Assembly (NCBI RefSeq): GCF_002979915.1
Contig: NZ_PCQA01000004.1
Coordinates: 248,001-312,000, forward strand
DNA from: Arthrobacter sp. MYb213
GTDB lineage: Bacteria; Actinomycetota; Actinomycetes; Actinomycetales; Micrococcaceae
Direction: 5' to 3'
Length of the DNA: 64,000 nucleotides
Below, piece after piece: positions 4,209 to 11,473 of the stretch (positions are counted from its first letter, which is position 1; the number at the start of each line of letters is the position of its first letter). A program made the translations under genes and the position numbers. The notes beneath the pieces were generated by a model, which had not been told where the DNA came from, did no database searches, and saw only the letters and a list, made by a program, of their open reading frames with translations.

Positions 4209-6761
4209 TTAGCTACCGAAGTAGTCCATGACCGATTCGCTTGATGCGATTTCCGCGGCTGGGACCTGCTTGGCAACCTTTAGCTGTCCTGCAGCGAAGT
4301 CGACCTCTACAGTGTCACCGGCGTTGAGTTCATCACCGATCAGCAGATCCGCGATAGCATCTTGGACCTTGCGCTGAACCAGACGACGCAGGGGACGAGC
4401 ACCGAACTCTGGGTCGTAGCCTTCCGTTGCCAACCATGAAACAGCAGCGTCGGTGACGTGCAGTTTCAGTTCCTGCTCCGCCAGGTGCTTGCCGGTCTCA
4501 TCGAGAACCAGTTTCACAATCTGCGCAATCTCAGACTCGCTGAGCTTGCCGAAGAGTAGTACCTCGTCCAGGCGGTTCAGGAACTCGGGACGCATGAACT
4601 CACGAACCTTACCCATGACCTTGGCCCGAATTTCAGCCTTCTCGCTACTTGCATTGACCGAGGTGAAACCAAAGTTACCGGCCTTGTTAGCGAGGTATTC
4701 GCCGCCGAGGTTACTGGTCATCAAGATCAGAGTATTGGAAAAATCGACGGTGCGTCCGGCCGTATCTGTCAGGCGTCCGTCATCCAAGACCTGCAAGAGC
4801 ACGTTGAATACATCGGGGTGAGCCTTCTCGATTTCATCGAGCAAAATCACCGAGTACGGGTTGCGACGTACCTTTTCGGTGAGCTGTCCTGGCTCGTCGT
4901 GCCCCACATAGCCTGGAGGGGCACCGATGAGCCGCGAGACGGTGTGCTTTTCTCCGTACTCGCTCATGTCGATCCGTACAAAGGCATCGGATGAACCGAA
5001 CAGGTTATTAGCCAGAGCCTTAGCCAGCTCGGTTTTACCCACGCCGGTCGGGCCGAGGAACAAGAAGGAACCAATTGGACGTTGTGCCGGAGCTAAACCG
5101 GTACGGCTGCGGCGCACGGCACGGGAGACAGCCGCAACTGCGTCGTGCTGGCCGATAACCGAGGCGTGCAGCTGTTCTTCCAAGGACGCCAACCGGTTCT
5201 TGTCATCCCCGTTGATCCGGGAGGTTGGGATTCCAGTGGAGCGAGAGATGACCTCGGAAATTTGGGCTTCATCAACGATACGAGTGATCCCAGAATCACC
5301 GGCCTTCTCGGCAGCGGTAATGCGTTCGGTGAGAGCAGCATTATGATCGCGCCATGCACTGGCATCTTCATAACGTTCCTCGCCGATTGCACGGGCCTTT
5401 TCGCGGTCTGCCTCGACCAGCTCGTTGCGTAGTGCCTGTACGTCCTCGGTGCCGCCAGCGGCGATTGACCTGCGGGCGCCAGCAATATCGAGCAGATCGA
5501 TTGCCTTATCCGGCAAACGACGGTCGGTCAGGTAGCGGGCCGACAGCGAGACTGCAGCTTTCAAGGCCTCAGGGGTGTATTGCACCTGGTGGTGATCTTC
5601 ATAAGATTCTTGCAAACCCTCAAGGATCGCCAGGGCGACTTCCTGAGAAGGTTCTCCCACGGTGACTTTGCCGAAGCGTCGTACCAGAGCCGAATCTTTT
5701 TCGACCTTACGGAATTCATCTAGCGTGGTAGCGCCGATCAGGTGCAATTCCCCGCGAGCTAGACGTGGTTTGAGGATATTAGCTGCATCCATATTTCCGG
5801 ATTCGCCGGAACCGGCGCCAACTAGCAGGTGCATTTCATCAATAAAGATGATGGTCTGCCCCTCCGCGTCAGCGACTTCCTCAAGCAGCCCGGTCAGGCG
5901 CTGTTCGAAGTCACCGCGGTAACGCGTTCCAGAGAGCATTCCAGGGAGGTCAATGGAGATCAGCTGAGTTCCGCGGATTTGCTCAGGGACTTCGCCGGCA
6001 ACGATGGCGCGAGCCAGTCCCTCGGCGATAGCGGTCTTACCTACGCCAGCTTCACCGATAAGTACCGGGTTGTTTTTGGTGCGGCGAGCCAAGATCTCAA
6101 CGACTTGAGCCAACTCGTCATCACGACCGATGACTGGATCGATTTGTCCGTCAGATGCCAAAGCGGTCAGATCGGTGCCGTAGCGTTCAAGCATTGAAAC
6201 ATCTTGTTCTTCGCCAGTCTCAGCTTCGCCGGACTGCGCGCGCTGGGCTTGCTCCATGGCTGCCTGTTGCAGGCTTTGTCCAGTGATGCCGTGTTGTGCG
6301 AGCAACATGCCCACGGGGGAGTCTGGTGAGAAGACAAAGGCTAGGAATAGGTGTTCAGGATCGATATAGGTCGAACCGTAGTTTCGAGCAACCTGATACG
6401 CGTCAAAGAGACTGCGCTGCGCAGCGGAGGAGAGACGAGAAGGCTTCTCGGTTGCCTCTTCGCGGCGTGGCAGGCGCTGAATTGCGTCCTTGGAGAGGGC
6501 TTCAAGATCCACACCCATTGCGCTCAGGTGTTGTCCGGCAGGCTCGGTGCGGAGCAGGGCGACAAGCAGGTGCAACGCATCAATCTCTGAATGCCCGTTT
6601 TCGTGGGCGAACCCGGCGGCGATAGATACCGCTTCGTGAGTGCGCTGTGAGAGCAGACGAGTGATGTCGATGGGGCGCGCGGCCTGAGCACGTGAGGAGA
6701 GGAACCGGGAGAGGAATTCCTCGAACGAGCCGTCTGACGGTGGTCCGAAAAAAGCTGGCAA
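4209..6761 (-). CDS. ClpC-like AAA+ unfoldase (HspR-type control)
   Basis: 850-residue double-AAA+ chaperone/unfoldase. Two Clp N repeats lie at about 35-170. The first ATPase has Walker A GEAGVGKT (236-243) and Walker B IIFIDE (304-309); the second has GPTGVGKT (570-577) and VILLDE. Between them is a short UVR-like segment (about 443-482) rather than the long ClpB coiled coil, which argues for ClpC/ClpE over ClpB. An FGF tripeptide (697-699) stands where ClpC/ClpA carry the VGF/IGL ClpP-docking loop, so it may deliver substrates to ClpP. The start is a TTG at 6759-6761, well supported by AGGAGG six bases upstream. A HAIR-like operator just before the gene suggests heat-shock control. A second, essential ClpC is probably elsewhere in the genome (inference). 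Confidence 0.85.
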
Positions 6762-6781
6762 GATGAGCCTCCTAGTAGAAA

Positions 6782-6802
6782 CTTGAGTGGTCTATGCTCA
6801 TG
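6782..6802. promoter_or_regulatory. HAIR-like HspR operator
   Basis: CTTGAGT at 6782-6788, exactly seven bases, then GCTCATG at 6796-6802. The actinobacterial HspR inverted repeat is CTTGAGT-N7-ACTCAAG; 12 of 14 positions match. It lies 20 bases before the clpC-like start. A possible -10 TATTAC reads on the minus strand at 6814-6809, so HspR would sit over the transcription start. Confidence 0.65.
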
Positions 6803-6875
6803 TTCAACGTAATACGACAGAATCTATTCCCGCAAAGTGGAGTTAGGCAACTAGAAGAGTGGTAGTTCACAGATT

Positions 6876-7550
6876 TTAGGCATCGCGGGGGATCTCGATG
6901 AGCCCCAGCCGTGTTGCTGCAATGAGCGCCTGTACCCGGTCGCGTACTTCCAGTTTCATAAAGATCTTCGCCATATGGGTCTTTACCGTAGCCTCGGAGA
7001 TATTCAAACGCCGACTCGTCTCCGTGTTGTTGAAACCTTCGGAGAGAAGTCCAAGGATTTGCATTTCACGATTGGTTAGACCCAGATCGTCGATAAGATC
7101 CGCAATATCTTGTGGCGTTCGGTGAACATTTCTAACCGCGGTGATTAAATCAGCCGAAACCGACGGTGAGATGGCCGCAGACCCATTATGAACGGAATGA
7201 ACAGCCTTAATTATTTCGCCTGGTTCAGTGTCTTTGACGAGGTAACCACTGGCGCCTGCAACAAGGACCGGGACCAGATAATCATCCGAGGAAAATGCGG
7301 TAATAGCAAGGATTTCCGGGCTGTCCTCTAGGGATTTAATATTCTTTGTAGCTTCAATGCCATTCATGATTGGCATTTGTAAATCCATGAGGACGACATC
7401 TACTTCGTGCGCTTCACAGTAGGTCACCGCTTCTTGCCCATTTTGTACCGAATTAACAGTTACAATTCCCTGATCCGTTGCTAGGATCGTGCTAAGCGCG
7501 TGCCGAATAAGAGGCTCATCATCTACGATGAGGACCTTAATCTGTTCCAT
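6876..7550 (-). CDS. NarL/LuxR-family response regulator
   Basis: 224 residues. The receiver domain (about 1-120) has the acidic pair D10/D11, phosphoacceptor Asp56 (VVLMDLQMP), a Thr in ITAFSSD and Lys in YLVKD. The C-terminal LuxR helix-turn-helix (about 155-215) contains LTNREMQILGLLSEGFNN and a recognition helix in SEATVKTHMAKIF. A Shine-Dalgarno AAAGGAA precedes ATG 7550. It is transcribed divergently from a peptide gene and a DesK-type kinase gene, the natural cognate partner. The 83 bases between 7550 and 7634 must hold both promoters, so direct control of the peptide gene by this regulator is likely (inference). Confidence 0.9.
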   Translation of the reverse strand: MEQIKVLIVDDEPLIRHALSTILATDQGIVTVNSVQNGQEAVTYCEAHEVDVVLMDLQMPIMNGIEATKNIKSLEDSPEILAITAFSSDDYLVPVLVAGASGYLVKDTEPGEIIKAVHSVHNGSAAISPSVSADLITAVRNVHRTPQDIADLIDDLGLTNREMQILGLLSEGFNNTETSRRLNISEATVKTHMAKIFMKLEVRDRVQALIAATRLGLIEIPRDA

Positions 7551-7633
7551 TGGTTTCCTTTAAATGGGAGGCAGCTCAGGAGTCAACCTGCCTTAAATCG
7601 AAGAATATAAGTTCAATAGTTTTGGGGTTTGAA
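7551..7633. promoter_or_regulatory. Shared divergent promoter region of the peptide/two-component locus
   Basis: 83 bases between the response regulator start and the peptide gene start. A TATAAG (7606-7611) could be the plus-strand -10, giving a leader of roughly 16 bases. GGCAG/CTGCC arms (13 bases apart, around 7570-7592) and two partly repeated TTTAAAT/TTAAAT blocks are the only symmetrical elements I see; either could be a response-regulator site, but neither is proven. Confidence 0.4.
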
Positions 7634-7819
7634 ATGAAAGCTTTAAAGATTTTGGCAGTAGCTGCCCTCGTAGCGGCTCCGTTTGCTGCAGCAGCACCTG
7701 CAACTGCGGCACCGGTGGCCGAGTCTACCTATTCGGGACTGGCCGTCGCGACTCCAGCGGGATGGGGTACTGACTTCTCTAATTGGGTGTGCAAGCATTA
7801 CGGCGTATCTTGCGGTTAA
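7634..7819 (+). CDS. Small secreted peptide precursor with C-terminal Cys-x6-Cys loop
   Basis: 61 residues. Residues 1-25 form a clear signal peptide: basic MKALK, a hydrophobic Ala/Val/Leu core and an Ala-x-Ala end (ATA before A26). The expected mature peptide is about 36 residues with a Gly/Trp-rich middle (AGWGTDFSNW) and a C-terminus WVCKHYGVSCG. Cys53 and Cys60 could close a small disulphide ring. I start at ATG 7634 because it begins the signal peptide directly; a start at 7550 would overlap the divergent gene. It lies 44 bases ahead of a membrane histidine kinase gene, so the two are probably co-transcribed. This layout resembles peptide-pheromone or peptide-sensing circuits, but I know no described family for it; a bacteriocin or a sensor accessory peptide is also possible. 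Confidence 0.65.
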   Translation: MKALKILAVAALVAAPFAAAAPATAAPVAESTYSGLAVATPAGWGTDFSNWVCKHYGVSCG

Positions 7820-7863
7820 AACCGTATTTGACTTTCCTGCTCGTCAGGTAAAGTATTCCGCAT

Positions 7864-9048
7864 ATGAGACTGCGTATGATGGCCACCCTAACTAAGCTTT
7901 TTGCTGGTCGGGGTGTTGTCATTTGGGTCGGTATTCTCACCTTTGTGGCAATCACAGCTACGGAAAGCTATACGCTACTCCAGGATGGTTTTGAAGACTC
8001 CCCTACCAGAGTGGTTCACGGGGCGATAGTTGGTTTGTTGTTGCTGGTCGCGCTGCTGGTAGGTACGCGTTGGGTTGCTGCGTCACTTGGAGCTTATCTG
8101 GCCACGCTCTTTTTCTTTTTTGGCGATGGAGACCTGCTTCTGTGGCTAGTGTTCTCACTCGTTATTTTTAGTGTCCTCGCCGCCACCGCAAATTCGTCTA
8201 TTGTGCGGATTTGGTACCTAGTGCTTTTGGCTATTTGGATGGGACAGTACGGGATCAGATCGGGCGAAGACGCGATCTTGCTGGTTATTTTTGTGCCGAT
8301 TGCAGCGGTGGCCTATGTTTTAGCGCGGAACATATTTAACCTCCGCGAGCGAAATCTCAACGCGGTTCTGCTCATGGAAGAGAGCCGGGAGCAAAACCGA
8401 GTCGCGATTGAGCGCGAACGTAAAAACATCGCTCGGGACCTGCACGATATTGTCGCCCACGACATCACCGTGGTGGCTATGCAGTCTAAAGCTGCAAAAT
8501 TTGCCAATAGTGGCCAGGCAGCCATTGACGCAATCGACATCATTGCAAAACTCAGTACAGAGACGCTCCACGACTTGAGGCTGATGCTCAATGTATTGCG
8601 AACCGACGGGACAATGAGTGATTCGTCGGGTGGAAGCGCCGATAAGCCGGCGGCAACCACTGTTTATGCAGTTCAAGGCCTGGAGATCTTTACGCAACGG
8701 TTAAAAGATTCCGGTTTTTCTGTGACCTCTCACACCGACGAAAAAATCTCTGAACTTCCGCGTTCTGCGCAGACTGCGTTGTATCGAGTGATGCAGGAAG
8801 CGACCACGAACATTATCAAACACGCTAAGCGCGAGAGTTCCTGTAATCTGCGTTTAGAGATCTCCGGGTCGAACGCAATCCTTGAAATGACTAATCAGAT
8901 GCCGAACTCGAAGCCTAAAAAGGGCGACCTGCCGGTCGGTGGAATTGGTCTTATTGGTATGCGAGACCGGATGAATGCTTTCGGCGGCCGGTTCAATGCG
9001 GACGTTGTGGATGGCCACTGGGTGCTCACCGCCAGCATCCCGTTCTAG
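7864..9048 (+). CDS. DesK/NarX-type sensor histidine kinase with multispan membrane sensor
   Basis: 394 residues. The N-terminal half (about 17-157) has five to six hydrophobic segments and almost no extracytoplasmic domain. A short linker helix leads to the HisKA_3 dimerisation box (RERKNIARDLHD) with phosphoacceptor His194, then an HATPase domain with N-box LYRVMQEATTNIIKHAK and a glycine box GIGLIGMRDRM. This class pairs with NarL regulators, and one is divergently encoded 0.3 kb upstream. Kinases with a membrane-only sensor often read membrane state or small peptides; the preceding peptide gene makes the latter attractive (inference). ATG 7864 follows AGGTAAAG. Confidence 0.9.
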   Translation: MRLRMMATLTKLFAGRGVVIWVGILTFVAITATESYTLLQDGFEDSPTRVVHGAIVGLLLLVALLVGTRWVAASLGAYLATLFFFFGDGDLLLWLVFSLVIFSVLAATANSSIVRIWYLVLLAIWMGQYGIRSGEDAILLVIFVPIAAVAYVLARNIFNLRERNLNAVLLMEESREQNRVAIERERKNIARDLHDIVAHDITVVAMQSKAAKFANSGQAAIDAIDIIAKLSTETLHDLRLMLNVLRTDGTMSDSSGGSADKPAATTVYAVQGLEIFTQRLKDSGFSVTSHTDEKISELPRSAQTALYRVMQEATTNIIKHAKRESSCNLRLEISGSNAILEMTNQMPNSKPKKGDLPVGGIGLIGMRDRMNAFGGRFNADVVDGHWVLTASIPF

Positions 9049-9185
9049 GCCCTACCCTCCTACTTAAGTATGATTTCGCTTTTCTTGGAATCGCGATAAG
9101 TTATAGATGTATCGGTGAAGACCGATCACCGCAGGGAAATTGGTGATGTTTTGCGAGTGGCATCATCAAAAGTTCCGCAGTGATT

Positions 9186-9283
9186 AAAAGGTACGTTGCG
9201 TCATGGACGAACTGATCTTTCTTCGGCGTTGTGCCCCCATCGCACGCCTGAGTTTGTTAGTGGCGCGACGTACCTTTTATAAC
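9186..9283. promoter_or_regulatory. Long inverted repeat around the nitroreductase promoter
   Basis: AAAAGGTACGT at 9186-9196 is repeated in inverted form, ACGTACCTTTT at 9268-9278; outside this core the match continues (GCG on both sides), giving about 15 of 17 positions. The right arm overlaps TATAAC (9278-9283), which with TTGTTA (9254-9259) at 18 bases makes a plausible sigma-70 promoter for the downstream gene. The arrangement suits a repressor that loops two half sites. The region 9049-9392 holds no other convincing gene. Confidence 0.5.
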
Positions 9284-9392
9284 CTCACCGATACCTGTTG
9301 TGTTACAGCTCACATGGCTGATGTGGAATGTCCTAGGCCGAGTTTTCCGTTATACCTCTTGGATACAATCAACTTTCGAGAGTGAGCATCAC

Positions 9393-10013
9393 ATGTCGGT
9401 TCAGACTGAAACCCAACCATACGAAATGCTAAGCATTAACTCGGACGCGGCGGATCAGCTGTTCTTCGAAGCCCGTAGCGCAAACTCCTTTAGCGATGAG
9501 CCGGTCTCGGATGACGTTCTGGATGCAATCTACGACACCATGAAAATGGGTCCAACTCTCATGAATAACCAGCCAATGCGCATCACGTGGGTGAAAAGCG
9601 CTGAGGCTCGTCAAAAGGTCTCAGAGACCATGGCTGGCACTAACGCACAGAAAGCGCTAACTGCACCGGCACTAGCCATTCTTTCGTTCGATACCGAATG
9701 GCACGAAGAATTCCCATCTTTCTTCCCACATGCTCCAGAACGCAAGGCAATGTTTGAAGATCAGGGTGCGCGCACTGCGATCGGAAATAACAACGCATGG
9801 TTGCAGGCCGGATACTTCATCATGGCAGTACGTGCCGTTGGTTTAGCTGCTGGCCCAATGGGTGGCTTTGATGCAGCTGCGGTTGACGCCGTGGTGAACG
9901 TCGATGGTCGCAACAAGTCGTTCTTGATAGTGAATGTTGGCAAACCAGGCGCTGACGCATGGTTTGATCGACTTCCACGCCATGATGCGCAGTTCGCTAC
10001 TCGCAGCATCTAA
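9393..10013 (+). CDS. Nitroreductase-family protein, RutE/HadB-like
   Basis: 206 residues. The order FFEARSANSFSDEPVSDD, PTLMNNQPMRITWV and NNNAWLQAGYFIMAVRAVGLAAGPMGGFD matches the small FMN-dependent malonic semialdehyde reductase/nitroreductase group (E. coli RutE is 196 aa). Family members use NAD(P)H and FMN to reduce 3-oxopropanoate, quinones or nitro compounds; the natural substrate here cannot be told. ATG 9393 begins the conserved part; an earlier ATG at 9300 would add a non-conserved tail running back into the promoter. It stands alone between a promoter with an inverted repeat and a terminator, so it is probably a single inducible gene. Confidence 0.85.
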   Translation: MSVQTETQPYEMLSINSDAADQLFFEARSANSFSDEPVSDDVLDAIYDTMKMGPTLMNNQPMRITWVKSAEARQKVSETMAGTNAQKALTAPALAILSFDTEWHEEFPSFFPHAPERKAMFEDQGARTAIGNNNAWLQAGYFIMAVRAVGLAAGPMGGFDAAAVDAVVNVDGRNKSFLIVNVGKPGADAWFDRLPRHDAQFATRSI

Positions 10014-10029
10014 TCACTTCAAAAGCATA

Positions 10030-10075
10030 AAAGGGGTCCTCCGCAACAAATTTAATTGTTGCAGAGGACCCCTTT
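10030..10075. terminator. Bidirectional hairpin terminator
   Basis: Arms 10030-10049 and 10057-10075 pair almost perfectly (AAAGGGGTCCTC...GCAACAA with one mismatch) around TTTAAT. A-rich on the left and T-rich on the right, so it can end both the nitroreductase gene and the convergent unknown gene. Confidence 0.8.
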
Positions 10076-10092
10076 GGCCTTTAGCGCGAGGG

Positions 10093-11289
10093 TTACTCTC
10101 CGGCTCCCGACGGGTCATTTTCAAGAACGTGGTCCGACACCTTGGAAAGCGCGCGCTCAAGTGCTGCCCGAAGGATCACCGGTACGGTGATTTCCTCTTC
10201 CAAGGTCAGTAGGCCTTCGCGTTCAAAGGTGCGCAAGATGGTTTCAACCTGTGGGACCGCGACCTCGAGGCTTGAGATGAGGTGGTGTTGCTCAACCGGC
10301 AGGTCATCTTCGGATGGGATGTGCAATGCAAATTCGGTGCGTGGTGGCTTCGAAGAAGCAGCATGGGTGAGAAGTCCGGCGACCATCTCAGCAACCTGGG
10401 CCTGTCCGGGAGTCTGCAAGGTATTGATCAGCACGTGCGAATAGATGACCTCGGCGAGTAGTTCCTTGATCAGGCGTGCGCCAGCTCCGGTGGATGCGAG
10501 CAGAGCTTCGCGAAGTGAATCTGTGGGTACAGCCTGCGGTGAGCTGTAGCGAAGCATGGCAGTGCCGATAAAGGCATCCCAGTAGGCGGCCAGGCGGGGA
10601 ATCGATGCCAGGTCCGCTACCACGGTTCCGTCTTCGGGCTCCCAGCGATTAGCTTCTGGGGTACTGGTCTCATCAACGGTCACCATGAGGCCCAGAGCTT
10701 CGGCTGCTTCTTGTAGCGTCTGTCCGCTGATCATTCCTGTTGGATCACTTGGCTTGCCTTCGCCGACCCATTCAATCAATTCACGTGCCGCATAAACGAA
10801 TGGCATGGATTCTAGGACCGAGTTGGCTTCCTCGTCATCCATGAATGGGACAACGATGGGGGAATCGCCAGCCATGCGAGAGAGGAACTCAAAAACTTCC
10901 TTGAATTCCTCAACGTTGCCGCCAAAATTCGCGGTGGTACCCAAGAAAGTTAGGTAGTGCTTGAGGATGGCCGCGCTAGCCTCGGAGACTTCCTCGCCTA
11001 TGGAAGCTAGGTGCCCCAGCTGTTCGCCAAGAATGGTGGGGTCCAATGTGGTGACATCCACGCGCTTGCGTAGTTGTGCATGAGCGACCAGCAAAGTGGT
11101 GAGACCTTCCAAGCCGGCGCGAGTTTCACTTGCTGGTTGGCCATCGGCTTGGAAGTGGCGGAATAGCTGGGATTTGAACGGCTGTAAGGCCTGTCGAACT
11201 TCAGATTCAAACGGTGCGCTACTAGCCCCAGCTTGGCGTGCTGGATGGCCCGAGGAAGCCTTTTTCTTGGCGGGCTTGCGTGATGCCAT
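10093..11289 (-). CDS. Conserved protein of unknown function
   Basis: 398 residues. The N-terminus is basic (SRKPAKKKASS) and likely disordered; the rest is largely helical and acidic, with no signal peptide or membrane segment and no catalytic motif I can name. Phrases such as ILKHYLTFLGTTANFGGN and FVYAARELIEWVGEGKPSDPTG look like an all-helical fold. I start at ATG 11289 because an upstream reading to 11355 has no ribosome binding site; a weak AAAGGAA lies 12 bases before 11289. It is flanked by a shared terminator and by a divergent oxidoreductase gene. I do not recognise the family and give no function. Confidence 0.6.
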   Translation of the reverse strand: MASRKPAKKKASSGHPARQAGASSAPFESEVRQALQPFKSQLFRHFQADGQPASETRAGLEGLTTLLVAHAQLRKRVDVTTLDPTILGEQLGHLASIGEEVSEASAAILKHYLTFLGTTANFGGNVEEFKEVFEFLSRMAGDSPIVVPFMDDEEANSVLESMPFVYAARELIEWVGEGKPSDPTGMISGQTLQEAAEALGLMVTVDETSTPEANRWEPEDGTVVADLASIPRLAAYWDAFIGTAMLRYSSPQAVPTDSLREALLASTGAGARLIKELLAEVIYSHVLINTLQTPGQAQVAEMVAGLLTHAASSKPPRTEFALHIPSEDDLPVEQHHLISSLEVAVPQVETILRTFEREGLLTLEEEITVPVILRAALERALSKVSDHVLENDPSGAGE

Positions 11290-11473
11290 GATCTGTTGTT
11301 GTTCCTTTGCTAAACGGGAATTGGTCGTCCGTTCCAGTCTACGCAGGGAGCTCACGTCAGCGTTGTTCAGCGCAAGCCATCGTAATCGCGAGCCGGGGAT
11401 AGCGAGGGGATACTTTCAAAGCTCCGTATTTTCTACGGTATAAAGTTGGAATTACAGTCAAAAATACAGGTCA

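Follow-up and report, generated by a model that had tools for sequence, protein, structure and literature searches.

The 64,000-nucleotide stretch of Arthrobacter sp. MYb213 analysed here (the window) holds a three-gene locus in which the gene for a 61-residue precursor peptide lies between a divergently transcribed NarL-type response regulator and a HisKA_3 sensor histidine kinase. This trio is probably a self-contained peptide-ligand two-component cassette whose peptide is read by the membrane sensor of the kinase, similar to ComX-ComP-ComA but without ComQ. Slightly less firmly, we favour the view that it belongs to an order-wide, undescribed family of peptide-kinase-regulator cassettes of Micrococcales-type actinobacteria, in which one receptor lineage would be served either by a Sec-exported Cys-loop precursor or by a leaderless peptide of 13-35 residues, and the locus would encode neither a modifying enzyme nor a dedicated exporter. 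No description of the cassette was found among the matches listed in open-licence PubMed Central (PMC) full text, a scope that leaves out subscription papers and preprints. In the mechanism that we propose, the precursor would leave the cell through the Sec pathway, with cleavage at an A-x-A motif, the C-terminal 11-24 residues would be closed by a Cys53-Cys60 disulphide, and this peptide would be read by the membrane-only sensor of the adjoining kinase, a binding step that is supported by the co-divergence described below. As the gene pairing suggests, the kinase would then control the divergent regulator by phosphotransfer, and the regulator may act on targets elsewhere and perhaps also on the cassette locus. 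The likely use would be cell-to-cell or self-sensing, as in ComX-ComP-ComA, with the peptide as a density or self signal.

For comparison among genomes, families were coded f1 (the family of the window), f3, f13 and f19, and genera were given g numbers, with g1 the genus of the window. In the initial annotation, a 61-residue precursor with the C-terminus WVCKHYGVSCG is flanked by a divergent regulator of the NarL type and by a HisKA_3 kinase, and all coordinates given there hold (Table 1). A search without a Cys requirement found the precursor encoded in 18 of 18 g1 genomes, in every case between the regulator and the kinase. That annotation had let its proposal depend on homologues keeping their Cys residues and sitting beside a kinase, and in g1 both expectations were borne out: Trp51 and both Cys residues are kept in all 18 genomes, next to a NarL/HisKA_3 pair. 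Outside g1, conservation of the Cys residues is partly by construction, because frame recognition there required the Cys pair. Sixteen of the 18 g1 precursors were aligned, and in these Trp51, Cys53, Tyr56, Gly57, Cys60, the PAG of residues 41-43 and the A-x-A of the signal part were invariant; the precursor of locus L010, outside this alignment, carries Asn in place of Gly57. Mean identity across the 18 genomes was 0.79 in the signal part, 0.24 in the spacer, 0.88 in VATPAG and 0.60 in the last 11 residues, and the ratio of nonsynonymous to synonymous polymorphism (pN/pS) was 0.22 in the signal part, 0.86 in the spacer, 0.32 in residues 38-61 and 0.375 in the last 11 residues (the core). Taken together, identity and pN/pS by region indicate that the precursor is translated, that its spacer evolves almost neutrally and that its C-terminal part is under constraint; judged by eye from its start, it is probably secreted via a Sec-type leader. 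The precursor had no family match in Pfam or PHROGs, and its best NCBIfam score was 12.5 bits against a cut-off of 25.

The kinase matched HisKA_3 in Pfam (6.1e-14), HATPase_c stayed below the cut-off, and the hydrophobic sensor part had no sensor domain match. Across the 18 g1 genomes, the membrane part was the least conserved part of the kinase (mean identity 0.54, vs. 0.90 in DHp and 0.67 in the ATPase part); the regulator had mean identities of 0.80 in the receiver and 0.77 in the helix-turn-helix part. Partial Mantel tests in three groups related the pairwise divergence of the peptide to the divergences of the regulator and of the membrane and core parts of the kinase. Given core and regulator, the peptide correlated with the membrane part in g1 (residues 38-61; r = 0.32, p = 0.002, n = 18), in g59, a genus of f19 (r = 0.63, p = 0.0002, n = 23; 0.65, n = 18, with Cys-pair forms excluded), and in g23 (r = 0.56, p = 0.0005, n = 14). 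The correlations with the kinase core given membrane part and regulator (−0.20, 0.04 and 0.04) were not significant in any group, nor was the partial correlation with the regulator in g59 and g23, the groups tested for it. Because the membrane part is also the fastest-evolving part, we ran a rate-matched control, in which columns of the kinase core and the regulator were matched to it one to one for variability. With these columns as controls, the membrane part still correlated with the peptide (0.295, p = 0.02; 0.65, p = 0.0002; 0.575, p = 0.0005), and the matched columns given the membrane part did not correlate significantly (0.05, 0.13 and −0.23). We read this co-divergence as ligand-sensor co-evolution that would embrace Sec-type and leaderless members alike. 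The general hallmarks of peptide-ligand two-component signalling, a peptide gene linked to a kinase gene and co-divergence of the peptide with the sensor, are thus both present in the cassette, with shared ancestry uncorrected in the latter.

Confining the homologues to one family, as the initial annotation had done, turned out to be too narrow, since we recognised loci in four families. One recognition pass with patterns fitted to the known forms gave 77 loci in 77 genomes from 14 genera and four families of one order, all of them divergent, with the regulator on one strand and the peptide followed by the kinase on the other (f1: g1 18, g23 15, g15 6, g27 2, g4 2 and g9 1; f13: 2; f3: 2; f19: 29). 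Within f1, the cassette occurs in at least 44 of the 395 sampled genomes and at least 6 of the 32 genera, counts that are lower bounds because scoring in the first look was limited to 15-16 candidates in each genome and only the stronger matches were taken further. Peptide profile searches of these 395 genomes yielded 68 and 79 matching genomes, with many of the listed matches ending before the Cys core; the trio was present at 18 of the 20 places fetched first and then at 7 of 8 further candidates. Extending the peptide search to 396 genomes of the order led to 28 new loci (L084-L111), two of which have regulator and kinase, L085 in f1 and L091 in f13; the latter, the only trio outside f1 among the 28, has a peptide that ends GRWACKRLGLFC. 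The other 26 loci, which lack regulator plus kinase, were dropped, as were the weak family-level matches L081, L082 and L135, without regulator or kinase.

Regulator-profile searches were run on 376 genomes of the order, 110 of f19 and 158 of the class, with 30 loci taken from each, which after removal of two duplicates left 88. At the class level, the best 30 loci comprised, besides the window, 17 operon-type loci, 10 without a detected kinase, 2 without a placed regulator and no divergent locus; a second regulator in genome G031 was rejected as not of the cassette kind. An automatic scan for frames ending in Cys-x(5-6)-Cys within 450 bases, which left unscanned three loci whose regulator was unplaced, matched 12 of 18 divergent loci, compared to 3 of 52 operon-type loci (in all three cases Arg-rich frames that do not resemble the family), none of the 15 loci that lacked a detected kinase, and 42 of 720 slots made by shuffling those of the divergent loci. 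When the 18 divergent loci were read through, a candidate peptide was recognised at 17 of them, namely 13 with a Cys loop, among them L146, whose frame stands behind a longer leader, and four (L149, L150, L155 and L158) with Cys-less frames of 15 residues. Four of the 18 were already known from the peptide search, and a candidate peptide is present at 13 of the 14 new ones. The small size of the frame is all that would speak for a chance frame without function; given the conservation in 18 of 18 g1 genomes and the scan controls, we regard that explanation as refuted, with a negligible residual probability. In a tree of 68 chosen regulators (32 peptide-linked, 35 operon-type and that of L148, a divergent pair), the peptide-linked label required 4 changes, compared to 22.7 when shuffled; 31 of the 32 peptide-linked regulators fell on one side, joined by L148 and the operon-type L151, and the remaining one, L159, lay outside on a long branch. 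Support for the division into these two sides is weak (68/30), and a single origin of the peptide-linked regulators with loss is likely from these sequences.

The peptides take two forms, Sec-type precursors that carry a Cys-x(5-6)-Cys loop at the C-terminus, and leaderless peptides of 13-35 residues, many of them Cys-less; start codons of the short frames were chosen by the analyst, and 'leaderless' was judged by eye. A signal-peptide-like start is found in f1, f3 and one f13 locus. In g59, a regulator of the cassette type (E ≤ 1e-68) was present in 23 of 99 genomes (three of them already found earlier), and all 23 loci are divergent with a tiny frame of one conserved type, in a scan that required a ribosome-site-like stretch before the frame. 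The Cys loop put forward in the initial annotation is accordingly a constant feature of g1 and not essential family-wide: 17 of the 23 g59 peptides are Cys-less, with 13-15 residues (e.g., MTFWQQVGKFFGLVR), three have one Cys (MTFWQQLCILLGILR type), and three have two (MPFGIWDSLCRLLGLCS, MIRSGIWTALCRLLGLCS). Nineteen aligned 15-mers share an invariant Trp4 and Gly12, with a pN/pS of 0.435. Other peptides of f19 and f13 are MFSGTKIIAPLQLSFFEWLCQMFGICS, which has no clear ribosome site, MSPLNPFGIGPLISTMVASNADLGDWLCKMLGICA, MLEILLLNMPDVVPTFAWLCQVLGICKP and MFGVVPMGFWTWLCEASGFCK. The presence of a leaderless short peptide in the same slot of related lineages suggests that the precursor part is replaceable and that the short C-terminal core is the working part.

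The leaderless forms also bear on the main alternative, in which the peptide remains within or attached to the membrane of its producer and tunes the kinase from within, so that the circuit monitors the cell itself and carries no intercellular message. Leaderless forms, together with ScrA-SaeS, a pair for which an interaction between transmembrane parts is reported in PMC12239555, make such a modulator plausible. The f19 slot holds leaderless hydrophobic peptides of 13-20 residues, the sensor part of the kinase is hydrophobic and without a sensor domain match, and co-divergence of peptide and membrane domain fits a membrane modulator too. However, the signal-peptide-like starts in three families and the A-x-A conserved in g1 point to release outside the membrane, and we consider the membrane modulator rather unlikely, though the foremost of the alternatives.

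Among known systems, ComQXPA is the closest comparison. The initial annotation had treated the HisKA_3 kinase as a contrast with Com, which was mistaken: according to PMC4008528, ComP carries PF07730 (HisKA_3) and ComA PF00196. The same paper describes the ComX precursor as 52-73 residues long, with a Trp near the C-terminus, and its gene as lying upstream of that for a PF07730 kinase whose multi-pass membrane part is variable; it also describes the peptide as the most variable and the regulator as the least variable component of comQXPA, and its 2014 census met with no such locus outside the Firmicutes (PMC4008528). Likewise, the cassette has a PF07730 kinase with a multi-pass membrane sensor (by Pfam and hydropathy), a GerE/NarL-type regulator like ComA, and a sensor that is the most variable part of the kinase and co-diverges with the peptide. 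For the Trp expected in ComX 5-10 residues from the C-terminus, the window peptide has W51 followed by 10 residues, a Trp found in 18 of 18 g1 genomes and not in every genus. In contrast to comQXPA, with its four genes in line on one strand, the cassette regulator is divergent; the peptide is Sec-type or leaderless, with a Cys-x(5-6)-Cys loop; the window precursor and seven relatives gave no match to ComX (PF05952); and there is no ComQ-like gene at the locus, the three PF00348 polyprenyl synthases of the same genome lying on contigs C7, C7 and C1 and none on the locus contig C9. As ComQ, the ComX family and the gene order all fail, the cassette is not a member of ComQXPA.

Agr systems combine a multi-pass kinase and an adjacent regulator with a small precursor that carries its ring-forming part at the C-terminus or close to it, and the cassette resembles them in all of these respects. 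It differs in its GerE regulator (LytTR in Agr), its HisKA_3 kinase (HATPase_c_5 in Agr), its Sec-type leader and its two Cys residues in place of a thiolactone. A search for AgrB gave no match in the genome of the window; of 14 control genomes one responded and none exceeded the cut-off, so that the sensitivity of this search is unproved. With DesK/DesR, the cassette shares a membrane-only sensor and a kinase whose residues 303-393 are the only part that matches solved DesK structures, a match that stops short of the sensor; it differs further by a dedicated peptide gene between divergent genes. ScrA-SaeS is similar in that a small product of the own genome is thought to act on a membrane-only sensor, according to PMC12239555. 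The cassette differs from it by the signal peptide and Cys loop at many loci and by linkage to the kinase gene. In addition, SaeS belongs to a different kinase class.

Short, amphipathic and sometimes Cys-closed peptides also resemble small bacteriocins, and the Tyr-Gly-Val-x-Cys of the window peptide is reminiscent of the pediocin box. The peptide might accordingly be a small secreted antimicrobial or envelope-active product, with the two-component pair controlling it or guarding the producer. Class IIa (pediocin-like) bacteriocins have a YGNGV box and a double-glycine leader, whereas the window precursor is without the YGNGV box and its leader has A-x-A. YGV is not kept across loci (LGALC, LGLFC and FGIWC are found elsewhere), a crude survey of ten loci brought to notice no gene for immunity, transport or modification common to them, and a gene that is simply a target of the pair would not be expected to co-diverge with the kinase sensor. 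We therefore regard an antimicrobial role as improbable.

Several observations weigh against a secreted ligand read by the kinase. In g1 the signal part was also weakly correlated with the sensor (partial r = 0.22, p = 0.048), in simple correlations the peptide followed kinase core and regulator closely as well (0.38-0.84 in g59 and g23, 0.52-0.58 in g1), and the Mantel permutation p-values ignore shared ancestry. The Cys-less 15-mers were recognised by eye, in a reading that has no matched control from operon-type loci; at L148, which has the divergent layout, no peptide frame was found. The leaderless members are without an obvious export route and are a poor fit to a simple secreted pheromone. 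An AlphaFold model of the kinase, made from two sequences, was too poor for use (mean predicted local distance difference test score 46.7). Finally, the divergent region contains conserved sequence but no inverted repeat and no clear operator, and with no operator recognised there, a feedback loop is only a guess.

For a peptide-ligand cassette, the loci in 14 genera supply defined peptides together with their putative receptors and regulators, each accessible via a synthetic peptide of 11-24 residues. The natural series from Sec-type precursor to leaderless 15-residue peptide points to the working core, and the co-diverging sets of peptides and sensors are ready material for specificity swaps.

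Table 1. Parts of the cassette in the window (positions within the 64,000 nucleotides; residues refer to the encoded protein).
Feature	Position	Strand	Remarks
NarL/LuxR-type response regulator, 224 aa	6876-7550	-	Pfam Response_reg 1.1e-30 and GerE 3.4e-18; divergent to the peptide gene
Divergent intergenic region, 83 bases	7551-7633	.	Function presumed
GAAGAATATAAG	7600-7611		Promoter-like by conservation; TATAAG-type box kept in g1
GGGG run	7624-7627		Ribosome-site-like; G-rich run kept in g1
Precursor gene, 61 aa	ATG 7634 to stop 7819	+	
Signal peptide with A-x-A, residues 1-26	7634-7711	+	Judged by eye and by the conserved A-x-A
Variable spacer, precursor residues 27-37			
Conserved VATPAG, precursor residues 38-43			
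Cys-loop core, W51-G61	7784-7816	+	
Peptide-to-kinase gap, 44 bases	7820-7863	+	
TTGACTT box	7828-7834	+	Inside the peptide-to-kinase gap
Sensor histidine kinase, 394 aa	7864-9048	+	Hydrophobic sensor, about residues 15-165; HisKA_3, 185-248; ATPase domain, 303-377

The initial annotation had taken the gaps of 83 and 44 bases as signs of one control unit; the lengths are right, and yet the TTGACTT box in the shorter gap, kept in 16 of 18 g1 genomes, means that peptide and kinase may be transcribed separately. This gap measures 41-49 bases in 17 of the 18 genomes and 101 in one. A consensus promoter scan of 7400-7950 called no plus-strand promoter and left the TTGACTT box uncalled; within 7551-7633 it matched on the minus strand only. 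At L010 and L011, a perfect 8-nucleotide inverted repeat stands directly before the kinase start (ACTTCACC/GGTGAAGT, ACTTTACC/GGTAAAGT), and the TTGACTT box and these repeats are possible candidates for a kinase promoter and operator. Upstream of the peptide, g23 keeps CTGTTGACTT and GCAAGAAT (11 of 14 loci aligned). A weak terminator-like stem extends over the peptide stop codon (7811-7826), one of two such sites in 7400-7950, compared to 0.9 expected; it could favour the peptide over the kinase transcript. The stem and the short gap before the kinase gene would also suit an upstream reading frame that regulates the kinase messenger by translation coupling or attenuation and whose amino acids do not act in trans. 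Such a frame would have no purpose for a signal peptide, and a pN/pS of 0.22-0.44 in the constrained parts, the invariant residues of the aligned 15-mers and the box between peptide and kinase likewise speak against it, making it very improbable.

The genome of the window (3.79 Mb, 14 contigs) has 13 HisKA_3 matches; seven of the 12 other HisKA_3 loci were scanned (L001-L007) and gave chance two-Cys frames, none family-like by eye. Rfam found no match over 6000-10500. Downstream of the kinase, a 29-nucleotide inverted repeat (9185-9279), 79% complementary with its arms 37 nucleotides apart, has a very stable predicted fold; it is present as a single copy in the genome and has no Rfam match.

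Neighbours outside the trio, identified with a crude gene finder on ten loci and named by eye, with Pfam for five genes of the window, vary by genus: ClpB-like and nitroreductase genes in g1, a nitroreductase-like gene in g23, glycine-cleavage genes in g15 and g4, and ABC-transporter-like genes in g27. No shared export or maturation gene was noticed among them. The five window neighbours gave ClpB-like, nitroreductase and DAO matches in Pfam, with two unmatched. In all 18 g1 genomes, a ClpB/ClpC-like ATPase gene (4209-6761 in the window) comes directly after the regulator and on its strand, and a Clp query of the stretches fetched around the cassette from other f1 genera gave no match; the gene could be a genus-specific target or a mere neighbour. 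The divergent regulator/kinase pair listed under L246 (G029:C8:32000-42000) and L148 adjoins a glycine-cleavage-like gene as in g15 and g4, with no peptide found; it is either a natural case of loss or the site of a different kind of peptide. A 420-residue protein encoded at 10093-11355 has no Pfam match, and a gene similar to it by eye lies, together with a nitroreductase-like gene, beside the g23 cassette L137, so that the g1 locus and this g23 locus look syntenic.

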